DNA of 64,000 nucleotides, taken from the NCBI RefSeq assembly GCF_002153425.1, contig NZ_KZ119600.1, forward strand, positions 2,655,920-2,719,919, in the 5' to 3' direction. The stretch is from Litchfieldia alkalitelluris. GTDB lineage: Bacteria > Bacillota > Bacilli > Bacillales > Salisediminibacteriaceae. Below, piece after piece: positions 5,710-9,526 of the stretch. Position numbers and translations under genes: made by a program. The notes under the pieces are model-generated. The model made no database searches, was not told the DNA's origin, and saw only the letters and a list, made by a program, of their open reading frames with translations. How positions within the stretch are numbered: the stretch's first letter is position 1; every line of letters begins with the position of its first letter.

Positions 5710-5734
5710 AAAACACCAATTAAATTGGTGTTTT
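5710..5734 (-). terminator. Terminator of cueP
   Basis: The stem AAAACACCAAT (5710-5720) pairs with ATTGGTGTTTT (5724-5734) and, on the minus strand, is followed by a T-run. It overlaps the cueP stop codon. A strong terminator at the end of the complete cueP frame fits one transcript covering both sides of the internal TGA. Confidence 0.88.
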
Positions 5735-6254
5735 AAGACAATTGCATCGTTGTTATACACGTATCGTCACCTTCATAGGTTGAAATCTTCGACTCCACAC
5801 TTTTCTCATTGTTTTCAATGGTAATTTGATACGTGCGATCACGTGGTAGCCATAAATCAATAAAGCCGTTTTGTAAGGAGGTTACTGTATCATTTAATAC
5901 GATGCTACCATCCTCCACATCTACAATGACCACTTCAAACTCTTCCTCTATCATCTCTCCCTGACAACCTGTCAGATTATGAATGCTTCAAGGATGGGTT
6001 TCATTAACGTATGGTGCAATGGAAACAAAGAAATCTTCCTCTGAAATATCATAGACAAACTGATCGTCACCTTCCCTGACCATTAATTCATGAGAGGAAA
6101 TAGAAGCGACTTGATTAGTAATATTTCCTACACTGTAATCGTGCACCAGTTCGCGAATGTCCTCCACCTCCATTGAGGTATTATTATCATCATTACATCC
6201 TACTAATAAGAGAATGAGAACAAGGCCAATTCCGAATAGTACTTTTAATTTCAT
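5733..6254 (-). CDS. cueP: CueP-family copper-binding lipoprotein with in-frame TGA at the conserved Cys (candidate selenoprotein, or nonsense-mutated gene)
   Basis: Read through one TGA (5988-5990), this frame gives a 173-residue protein closely matching CueP, a periplasmic copper-binding protein in Salmonella and widespread in Bacillaceae. It has a lipoprotein signal with lipobox LLVGC (Cys20), then 'FFVSIAPYVNETHP', TGA, 'SIHNLTGCQGEM' and 'GFIDLWLPRD...DDTCITTMQL'. In CueP as I recall it, the residue after THP is Cys, eight residues before the Cys of TGCQGE; here that codon is TGA. Both halves are otherwise intact and in the same frame, and the downstream part has no convincing start of its own. 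The TGA could encode selenocysteine (a SECIS-like hairpin follows), or could be a recent nonsense mutation or a sequencing error. Start chosen: ATG after AAGGTGG. Confidence 0.85.
5961..5975 (-). promoter_or_regulatory. SECIS-like stem-loop downstream of the cueP TGA
   Basis: On the minus strand, CTGAC-AGGTT-GTCAG forms a 5-bp perfect stem with a 5-nt loop. The loop begins exactly 17 nt after the TGA and starts with AGG, so a G is among its first two bases. As I recall it, the Escherichia coli fdhF SECIS loop (AGGUCU) also begins 17 nt after its UGA. A lower helix UCAU/AUGA can form with an internal loop. The same bases also encode the conserved LTGCQ residues, so chance must be considered. 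Confidence 0.45.
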
Positions 6255-6420
6255 CAAATATCACCACCTTTTTTAACTCTTTTATATTAAAACAAAAATA
6301 TGAAGAAACAATGAAGTTATTATATACGTACAAAAGGACTTAAATTTTGTACATGTTTTACACACGGATAATAGTGGTGTTTTATTTAGTAACTACAAGA
6401 TAATATTTTACTAGAAAAAT

Positions 6421-6469: not shown

Positions 6470-9400
6470 TTATTTTATGGTTATGCTTTGAATGTATTCA
6501 TAACACTCTTTTGCTGTAAGGGGTTTGCTATACAGGTATCCTTGGACAAAATTACATTTTTCTGATGTTAATATATCTTTCTGTTCTTCCGTTTCGACTC
6601 CTTCAGCCGTAACAGTTAACTCTAGTGAATGAGCCATTGCGATAATCGCCCGCACAATCGCTGCATCATCCTTGTCCATATCCATATCGTGTATGAACGA
6701 TTTATCAATTTTCACATTGGAGATTGGCAACTGTTTTAACATGGCTAGGGACGAATAACCAATTCCAAAATCATCAATGGATATATTGACACCTAGTTCA
6801 CCAAGTTCTCTTAACATATCCATGCTGATCTCTACATTTTTAATGGCTGTGCTTTCCGTAATCTCCAGACATAAGTAGGATGGTGGCAAGTCACTCTCTT
6901 CGAGGATAGATTTGACAATATCCACAAAGTTTTTTTGTTGTAACTGTCTCGCTGATATATTAACAGAAACTATAATTGGCGGAAGCCCTAAATCTATCCA
7001 TTCTTTATTTTGTCGGCATGCTTCTTTCAAAACCCAATTTCCTATTGGGATAATCAGACCCGTTTCCTCAGCCAACGGAATAAAATCTAATGGTGATACA
7101 AGTCCACGACATGGTGAATGCCACCTTAGTAGTGCTTCAATTCCAAGTGTTCGGTTATTTTCTAATTGAAATTGAGGCTGATAATGTAACTCGAATTCAT
7201 TGCGTTCAATCGCTTTACGTAGTTCGTTCTCCATCGTAAAACGCTCTATTGTCATGGAATTAATGTCTGATGAATAGATTTCCATTTGATTTTTTCCATT
7301 TTCCTTCGCCTTGTACATGGCCACATCTGCACAGCGAGTTAAGCTGTCATAATCTAGCCCATCATCAGGATATACACTTACCCCAATACTTGCAGTGGTA
7401 AAAACATCGTGATCCTGTATAAAGAATGGGTCTTTAAATTTTTCAATAATCCTCTTAGCAACGACATCTGCATCTCTTACATCATGAATATGTGATAACA
7501 GAATGATAAACTCATCACCACCGAGCCTTGCTACAGTTGAATGTTCGCGGCTACCTCGTGAGATGGTATCTGAGGACCTCACTGTTTTTTCTAGTAAGCC
7601 CGCAACTTCTTGAATGAGCTGATCCCCTGCATGGTGCCCAAGAGTATCATTAATCACTTTGAATCGATCCAAATCTATTAATAAAACACCTAATTTGTAA
7701 TTATAACGATCAGCTTGTTCGATAGATTGAACTAATCGATCATGGAACAGTCGCCTGTTCGGAAGACCAGTTAAACCGTCATGAAAGGCTAAGTATTTAA
7801 TTTGTTCATCGGCAAGCTTTTTCTCTGAAATGTTAGTAATTGAGCCAATAATTCGAACAACCTTATCATTCTTACGGATAGAGTCTCCAGTTACATAAAC
7901 CCAAAGCTCCTCCTCGTTTTTCCCTTGAATCCTGAACTCACTCTTTAGTGCTGTACCCTTTTCCCCATGCTCTTTAAAGCTATTCAACACTCGGTCATAA
8001 TCATCTGGATGTATAAGTTGGAAGAAAGATTGATAATCAACAGGTAAAGATTCTCCTATTGTATCAAAAATATCTTTACTCCTGACGTTCCATTGAATAT
8101 GATCTGTTTCTACGTCCCAATCCCATATACCGTCATTCGTTGTGCTTGATACAATTTCCAATTGCTCTGCGATGGATTGAATTTGTTGAAATAATTCATC
8201 ACGCTCCATAGATGCAGCTGAAACTGTAAAACTAATTTGCGTAATATCGGCAGCAGAAATTAAGATAAGTTCATCTACTGGACCAACAATAGCAATAAAT
8301 CCCCAGTCTCCACGTTGATTTCGAATGGATTGAACCCGAACAAAATCATTGTCCTTAAGTGGTGGAATCCATTCCGTCGGTGGAAATTGATTAAGGGGGA
8401 TTTTATATCCAACAGGTGGTACAGGGTCACCATTTTTACTAAAGGTCTGGGAAACGATCAGATCTTTTTTATCCTGTTCATTTTTATCCCATAATGCGAG
8501 GCAACCCCAATGACTTTTCTTGCCAAACATATTTTCAAAATCAAAGTATTTCTCCCGTGATGCAGATGCCCATCTCTGAACAAACTCATCATAACGAGTT
8601 AGTATTGTATCTAAATTTAACTTTGATTGAATAAGCTGCTTTTGAACATCTACCGTTGGCTCCACAACTGGCACATGGTCACAACCACAGGAAGCCCGAG
8701 TGACAAGGTGAGTCTGAATGTTTGTTACGCCATACTCAATGTCTTCTCCATTCATTTTTCGATATAGGATATCAAAACCAGCACTTGCCAAATCTTTAAA
8801 GGATTGGCGCACGGTTGTTAGTGGTGGATTAAAGGTTTCAGCTGGCGCTAAATCATCAAATCCTACTACTGCAATATCTTCTGGCACTCTATATCCAGCT
8901 TCCTTTAGTTTCTCAATTGCTCCCATGGCGTTTAAATCTGTTGCAGCAAATATAGCAGTAAAGTCAATTCCTCGCTCAATCATTTCTTCAGCGGCGTAAT
9001 ATCCCCCTTGACGTATAGAATCCTTGGCTTGAAAAATGAGGTTATCATCATGATTTATCTGACTTTCAGTAAGCGCTTGCAAATAACCGAAACGCCGCTC
9101 CACAATGTCTAGATGTTCATTGCTACCAATAAAAGCAATGCGTTCATGACCATGATCTTTTATAAGGTGGAGAACGGCTTCTTTTGTCGCGCTTTTGTTA
9201 TCAATAATAACAGAATGACAATCAATAGCTTCCTCTGGATAACCTATCGTCACAACAGGTTTTCCAGTTGATTCAATATGTTTTAGTAATTCAGGATCTA
9301 TAGGCAGCACAGACTGGGGATTAGTCATTAATAACCAGCCATCTGTTTCCTCTGTTCCAACTTGATAATTAAATGGTTCTGGATTTCTTCCACTTGGTCT

Positions 9401-9526
9401 AGCTTGAATGGTAAAAATAGTAGCATTCTTTTTATTCGCTTCTTTATGCAACTCAACAAAAATTCTGCCGTAATAATCACCATCTAGGTAGGGAGTCATT
9501 AAACTAATGCGAGTGTTCATGTTCAT
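6470..9526 (-). CDS. LacI-type ligand-binding / PAS / GGDEF / EAL cyclic-di-GMP signalling protein
   Basis: This 1018-residue protein lacks any membrane segment, so it should be cytosolic. Residues 1-285 form a LacI/GalR-type periplasmic-binding-protein-like sensor ('HERIAFIGSNEHLD', 'VPEDIAVVGFDDLAPA') without the usual helix-turn-helix. A linker (about 290-440) leads to a PAS domain (about 450-570), a GGDEF domain with intact 'ARLGGDEFIILL' and an EAL domain with 'IEALLRWHSP', 'EITES', 'IDDFGIGYSSL', 'KIDKSFI', 'TAEGVETEEQ' and 'VQGYLYSKPL'. All metal and catalytic residues of EAL appear present, so it may both make and break c-di-GMP. The sensor implies control by a small sugar-like ligand. 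It is monocistronic. Confidence 0.92.
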   Translation of the reverse strand: MNMNTRISLMTPYLDGDYYGRIFVELHKEANKKNATIFTIQARPSGRNPEPFNYQVGTEETDGWLLMTNPQSVLPIDPELLKHIESTGKPVVTIGYPEEAIDCHSVIIDNKSATKEAVLHLIKDHGHERIAFIGSNEHLDIVERRFGYLQALTESQINHDDNLIFQAKDSIRQGGYYAAEEMIERGIDFTAIFAATDLNAMGAIEKLKEAGYRVPEDIAVVGFDDLAPAETFNPPLTTVRQSFKDLASAGFDILYRKMNGEDIEYGVTNIQTHLVTRASCGCDHVPVVEPTVDVQKQLIQSKLNLDTILTRYDEFVQRWASASREKYFDFENMFGKKSHWGCLALWDKNEQDKKDLIVSQTFSKNGDPVPPVGYKIPLNQFPPTEWIPPLKDNDFVRVQSIRNQRGDWGFIAIVGPVDELILISAADITQISFTVSAASMERDELFQQIQSIAEQLEIVSSTTNDGIWDWDVETDHIQWNVRSKDIFDTIGESLPVDYQSFFQLIHPDDYDRVLNSFKEHGEKGTALKSEFRIQGKNEEELWVYVTGDSIRKNDKVVRIIGSITNISEKKLADEQIKYLAFHDGLTGLPNRRLFHDRLVQSIEQADRYNYKLGVLLIDLDRFKVINDTLGHHAGDQLIQEVAGLLEKTVRSSDTISRGSREHSTVARLGGDEFIILLSHIHDVRDADVVAKRIIEKFKDPFFIQDHDVFTTASIGVSVYPDDGLDYDSLTRCADVAMYKAKENGKNQMEIYSSDINSMTIERFTMENELRKAIERNEFELHYQPQFQLENNRTLGIEALLRWHSPCRGLVSPLDFIPLAEETGLIIPIGNWVLKEACRQNKEWIDLGLPPIIVSVNISARQLQQKNFVDIVKSILEESDLPPSYLCLEITESTAIKNVEISMDMLRELGELGVNISIDDFGIGYSSLAMLKQLPISNVKIDKSFIHDMDMDKDDAAIVRAIIAMAHSLELTVTAEGVETEEQKDILTSEKCNFVQGYLYSKPLTAKECYEYIQSITIK

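Follow-up and report, generated by a model that had tools for sequence, protein, structure and literature searches.

On the minus strand of the window (the whole stretch of DNA analysed, 64,000 nucleotides from Litchfieldia alkalitelluris) lies a gene of the CueP copper-protein family, whose frame contains a single in-frame TGA (5990-5988) and no other in-frame stop. The original prediction had described one CueP split by a lone TGA, and the frame 6254-5733 agrees with it. The features of the locus, with their basis, are:

6262..6269, minus strand: Shine-Dalgarno-like AGGTGGTG, 5' of the ATG (read from the sequence)
5733..6254, minus strand: cueP with its TGA taken as a sense codon, 173 codons and the TAA (ATG at 6254; NCBIfam and Pfam matches; model against 4gqz)
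6195..6254, minus strand: N-terminal signal with lipobox LVGC, Cys 20 (sequence; the lipobox assignment is general knowledge)
5988..5990, minus strand: candidate selenocysteine (Sec) codon, the in-frame TGA, residue 89 or U89 (only TGA, TGT or TGC here in 107 distinct readable homologues)
5961..5975, minus strand: putative bacterial SECIS hairpin CTGACA-GGT-TGTCAG (12 nt 3' of the TGA; apical loop starting after 18 nt)
5964..5966, minus strand: TGT codon for the conserved Cys 97, second of the motif cysteines, overlapping the 3' arm of the hairpin (alignment)
5757..5759, minus strand: codon of conserved Cys 166, the third invariant cysteine of the CueP family (alignment)
5710..5734, minus strand: intrinsic terminator of 11 pairs with a loop of 3 and a T-run (hairpin found in the sequence)

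The strong terminator that had been placed past the frame was found as the 11-pair hairpin and T-run at 5734-5710, and because it comes after the gene, cueP appears to be monocistronic here. Promoter-like sites gave no signal above chance (3 seen, 4.3 expected), and the two Rfam matches on the locus were both far under their gathering scores. The neighbours of cueP in the window are a GGDEF/EAL protein and a short-chain dehydrogenase, with no copper gene beside it in the window. The first of these neighbours (6470-9526) is a fusion of a LacI-type periplasmic-binding domain with PAS, GGDEF and EAL domains in 1018 residues. Elsewhere in the same genome there is a decayed cueP remnant (G000:C1:3650376-3650468; L129 2377-2469, minus strand), which corresponds to the C-terminal end with 61% identity over 31 residues.

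The read-through product as a CueP protein

The 173-residue read-through product matched the NCBIfam model CueP_fam (NF038094) over positions 2-146 of 146 with an E value of 6.3e-54 and 181.6 bits against a cut-off of 60, and the Pfam model CueP (PF21172) with an E value of 1.1e-41 and 142.2 bits against a cut-off of 27. With the model for the Salmonella-type metallochaperone (NF038095) it scored 126.8 bits, which is under the curated cut-off of 195. The AlphaFold2 model of the product (mean pLDDT 84.3, residues 1-27 under 50) superimposed on the Salmonella CueP structure 4gqz with a TMq of 0.77 and an rmsd of 1.5, as one CueP fold. In an alignment of the product with 4gqz, the three cysteines of the Salmonella protein fall on residue 89 (the TGA), Cys97 and Cys166, and residue 89 corresponds to the THPC cysteine, eight residues N-terminal to the GCQGE cysteine (C97), in agreement with the earlier claim that the TGA stands at a conserved Cys at this distance. 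Counted along the alignment, the three cysteines occupy positions 78, 86 and 154 of the 4gqz chain, and an offset of 18 gives Cys96, Cys104 and Cys172, which we take to be the numbering of Salmonella CueP. Moreover, His87, the TGA position, His92, Cys97 and Cys166 are invariant in an alignment of 30 sequences in which Cys was written for the TGA residue. The three conserved Cys positions of CueP are thus all kept in the window product, one of them being the putative Sec position. A lipobox in an N-terminal signal leads to anchoring outside the membrane, and from this motif the CueP product is expected to be exported and anchored outside the cell membrane.

The TGA codon and the downstream hairpin among relatives

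CueP was found in 26 of 35 genomes of the family and in 89 of 397 genomes of the order, one of the 89 being a weak match (G221) that was set aside. The codon at the site was read in 112 loci, from which L045, L046 and L130 were dropped as repeats of places already in the set; also left out of the count were L112 (decayed, with TAC at the site and TGA and TAG inside), L044 (which ends short of the site), N-terminal fragments in other frames and a few short fragments. In the resulting 107 distinct readable CueP genes, the window gene included, 55 have TGA as the site codon and 52 have TGT or TGC. The TGA genes are spread over 53 genomes, counting that of the window, so the close relatives do not uniformly carry TGC or TGT. 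In three of the 55 (L042, L043 and L126) the frame is broken further upstream, and a contig end truncates L131. In a phylum-wide set of 398 genomes, 9 had a CueP match, and TGA occurred only in the window genome and in one other of the same order. A further set of named genomes, made up of the best 80 of 415 related loci and 7 from the phylum search and overlapping the 107-gene set, gave 25 loci with TGA, 60 with Cys and 2 without the motif. Carriers of TGA-CueP include Anaerobacillus arseniciselenatis, Salipaludibacillus aurantiacus, Evansella clarkii, Mesobacillus persicus, Halalkalibacter okhensis, Cytobacillus firmus, Schinkia azotoformans and Neobacillus niacini. Bacillales-type TGA-CueP was also seen under the names Pseudomonas sp. 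ISL-84 (L157) and Paenibacillus sp. FSL R5-0490 (L199), and these organism names may be wrong.

A CueP tree of 103 genes, made after four short ones had been removed from the 107, is weakly resolved. Parsimony counts 15 changes between Sec and Cys on it but only 1 is forced by starred branches, and repeated Sec/Cys exchange in CueP is therefore likely but unproven. As to plasmids, a protein search gave 22 CueP records, all below 60% identity among the matches listed, a DNA search of plasmids for cueP gave no match, and the one plasmid record read, from Staphylococcus equorum, has TGT at the site. In that organism an N-terminally short cueP for which no gene is listed (L230 3001-3318) lies on the plasmid beside a copper P-type ATPase.

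The hairpin behind the TGA accompanies the TGA form of the gene. The sequence (C/T)TGACA-GGT-TGTCA(G/A) stands 12 nt 3' of the TGA in all but one of the 55 TGA genes; the exception, L099, carries a double change of A-T to G-C on both arms at the cost of a Thr to Ala replacement. A stem of six Watson-Crick pairs closed by a GGT loop is present in 55/55 TGA genes versus 2/52 Cys genes (Fisher 1.3e-28, related genomes being counted as independent); in L102, another Cys gene, the six pairs enclose a different loop. Among the TGA genes, 35 have T-A as the outer pair and 20 have C-G. The same residues are encoded in the Cys genes by varied synonymous codons, and independent draws from these would give the full hairpin with a probability of 0.008. 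In the named-genome set all six pairs are complete in 25/25 TGA loci versus 1/60 Cys loci. Furthermore, RNAalifold predicted for 51 different TGA sequences exactly the SECIS hairpin and one outer pair (-8.7 kcal/mol), and for 51 different Cys sequences it predicted no structure.

The hairpin of the window gene has a loop of 3 beginning with GG and a stem of 6-7 bp, lies 18 nt from the UGA and folds with -8.9 kcal/mol. The constraints stated for the bacterial SECIS element (bSECIS) in a passage of a 2026 review are a loop of 3-9 nt, a stem of 4-16 bp, a G in the first two loop positions, a spacing of 16-37 nt and an energy of at most -7.5 kcal/mol (PMC13188914). Taken singly, the window hairpin is not exceptional (z -1.41, with 20 of 200 shuffles folding equally well), and when synonymous recodings were made with codons of the Cys genes only, 4.4% folded as well for the window gene, with a mean of 2.5% and a largest value of 15.2%. 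The case for the hairpin is therefore one of comparison, since the window sequence on its own is unremarkable. The two Cys genes that keep the full hairpin, L122 and L023 of Evansella tamaricis (the same gene as L164), are likely relics of a change from Sec to Cys, and the opposite direction of change is possible.

Selenocysteine machinery and the reading of the UGA

The search for Sec machinery that had been proposed as a check found all of its parts in the window genome. SelB (389 bits), SelA (527 bits) and SelD (413 bits) each gave one match over the curated cut-off, tRNA-Sec scored 55.1 bits, also over its cut-off, and was called tRNA-SeC by ARAGORN, and the four genes all lie within about 16 kb (C1:2555824-2571422). 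Since the tRNA-Sec model responds to other tRNAs as well (23 matches, of which one exceeded the cut-off; all 14 control genomes matched, 5 of them over it), the call was made on the over-cut-off match together with ARAGORN. In the same 14 control genomes the SelB and SelD models matched in all and were over the cut-off in 2 each, and the SelA model matched in 4, with 1 over the cut-off. The selD gene has a TGA of its own at the active site, in the motif AGU-GCKIGP (L133 1531-1533; G000:C1:2558393-2558395), and is itself likely a selenoprotein gene; it would seem, then, that a classic selenoprotein of the window genome contains Sec too. The three formate dehydrogenase homologues found in the window genome have no internal stop, and for that reason CueP and SelD may be main clients of its Sec machinery; the KCU-star selenoprotein had no match there.

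Across the genomes, SelA accompanies the TGA form: it was found in 52 of 53 TGA-CueP genomes versus 17 of 49 genomes with Cys-CueP only (p 8.5e-13, with kinship ignored and the Sec trait judged by SelA alone). For this count G065, which has both kinds of CueP, was placed with the TGA genomes, an E value of at most 1e-138 was taken as over the cut-off where the matches listed had no row for a genome, and a genome absent from the list was taken as having no match. The only TGA-CueP genome without SelA is G017, which is 76% complete. Over the order as sampled, SelA was over the cut-off in 181 of 397 genomes.

The locus and its relatives thus present the marks of a bacterial selenoprotein, namely a UGA at a Cys position, the Sec genes, a bSECIS hairpin, and a UGA that is conserved and tracks the Sec trait. 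We consider that the UGA at codon 89 is read as Sec and that cueP encodes a selenoprotein form of CueP, with a probability of roughly 0.96 on the strength of this comparative sequence evidence. The selenoprotein reading of the original prediction gains support from the 55 TGA genes, the covarying hairpin, the Sec machinery and the association with SelA.

The open frame past the UGA would also suit near-cognate read-through or a reassigned code that inserts another residue, but this is scarcely credible given that the alternative codon is Cys in 52/52 genes, that TGA-CueP goes with SelA and in every gene with the hairpin, and that TGA ends 5 of the 30 mechanically listed window ORFs of at least 250 codons and so is still a normal stop in this genome, on which ground a reassigned TGA was rejected. 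A single-base nonsense mutation, a pseudogene or a sequencing error in one strain was the plain alternative: one base separates TGA from TGT and TGC, and copies of cueP do decay, as the C-terminal remnant in the window genome and L112 illustrate. The same codon is nevertheless TGA in 55 distinct genes of 53 genomes together with a covarying hairpin, so that a nonsense mutation or an assembly error was rejected for the family and is most improbable. Finally, the UGA could be a true stop, giving two half-proteins by internal re-initiation, or a selenium-controlled switch between products of 88 and 173 residues. Both halves are open frames, and partial termination at Sec codons is normal, with 30-40% recoding in vivo according to a passage of PMC4513850. 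For the second half the earlier statement that it has no good start holds, as no position among the 21 codons following the TGA holds a start codon in every one of the 55 TGA genes, and the best column outside the hairpin has a start in 24 of them; the Cys relatives, moreover, encode a single chain, and the model is one CueP fold. We regard this alternative as very unlikely, although the two products might occur as a mixture that depends on selenium.

By the proposed mechanism, the ribosome would reach the UGA at codon 89, where the hairpin 12 nt downstream would recruit SelB with selenocysteinyl-tRNA-Sec, and Sec would be inserted in place of a stop. The product would then be exported and, as the lipobox suggests, anchored outside the membrane.

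The proposed role of Sec in CueP, and known systems

Gene neighbourhoods were compared within 8 kb in 78 named motif-bearing loci, one representative of each cluster being identified by Pfam. Two DsbD/CcdA-like clusters occur near cueP at 14 loci (3 with TGA-CueP) and 11 loci (2 with TGA-CueP), P-type ATPases at 13 (2), multicopper oxidases at 11 (2), TlpA-like proteins at 9 (0), DUF1541 at 8 (1) and CsoR-type repressors at 7 (2), the majority of the copper-gene neighbourhoods among the 78 loci belonging to Cys-CueP. In Sporosarcina globispora DSM 4 (L188 6451-9362), a multicopper oxidase gene, a TGA-cueP and a DsbD-like gene stand in a row on one strand. From its family and from these neighbours in some relatives we infer that the window CueP binds copper.

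The copper/thiol site of CueP would be made up of Sec89, the two cysteines Cys97 and Cys166, and two invariant histidines, His87 and His92; in this site Sec89 is most likely a Cu(I) ligand, half of a Sec-Cys redox pair, or both, and such a pair might be re-reduced by extracytoplasmic proteins of the thioredoxin/CcdA type. Compared with Cys, selenium would bind Cu(I) more tightly and recover more easily from over-oxidation. Our preferred picture is a site that binds Cu(I) and cycles in redox state, where Sec would improve both affinity and resistance to over-oxidation, with about even odds that Sec89 ligates copper directly. The Cu(I) binding by Sec that the original prediction suggested is plausible. 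It is quite possible, though short of probable, that the protein is a selenoprotein whose Sec carries out peroxide or copper-linked redox chemistry and does not ligate copper, an alternative that concerns the functional part only. Salmonella CueP reportedly scavenges ROS directly, going by a title in a reference list, and some relatives have DsbD/CcdA-like and TlpA-like genes close to cueP. In addition, most uncharacterised selenoproteins are considered redox-active in a passage of the review (PMC13188914). Against this, a passage of PMC7558416 assigns the copper site of CueP to its conserved Cys and His residues, and Cys104 of Salmonella CueP, the other motif cysteine, is reported in part of PMC13201067 as a metal-thiolate ligand whose replacement in C104S loses copper protection. 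Returning to the copper-binding, redox-cycling site, we propose tentatively, at somewhat under an even chance, that Bacillales keep the Sec trait partly for copper, with the selenolate of an extracytoplasmic Sec-CueP coordinating Cu(I) and Sec/Cys exchange following selenium and copper conditions.

The table of the 2026 review lists 119 families or subfamilies of prokaryotic selenoproteins, and two papers by Haft and co-workers are cited and tabulated in it; CueP, NF038094 and PF21172 are absent from its main text, and its 119-family table has no such entry (PMC13188914). A literature text search for CueP with selenoprotein or selenocysteine gave no relevant paper, and an NCBI annotation of Sec-CueP, which lies outside such a search, is possible. 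Since it is missing from the review table and from the literature searches, Sec-CueP is apparently an undescribed Sec variant of a known copper-protein family. A copper-handling family would thereby join the selenoproteome, with a relative of solved structure and a function that can be assayed, and the natural Sec and Cys versions within one order make it directly askable whether selenium serves metal binding or redox protection. Many public genomes probably list Sec-cueP as a split or truncated CueP.

With Salmonella CueP (4gqz; PF21172; NF038094/NF038095) the window protein has the fold and the cysteine positions (THPC, GCQGE and C-terminal) in common; it differs in the putative Sec as the first motif cysteine and in being, as predicted, a Gram-positive membrane-anchored form. 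The Cys-CueP proteins of Lederbergia lenta (L139) and Evansella tamaricis (L164) are 57-58% identical to it, and the Cys-CueP genes of other Bacillales have TGT or TGC at the site, unlike the TGA of the window gene. Its hairpin falls within all the rules of the bSECIS model, and what sets it apart is that the codons of the conserved protein motif L-T-G-C-Q themselves make up the hairpin. Sec in metal-handling proteins has its known counterparts in the CopZ-type (2Fe-2S)-binding proteins, the mercuric transport protein, MbdU and the SO_0444 Cu/Zn efflux transporter, which are entered in the table of the review as families other than CueP (PMC13188914).
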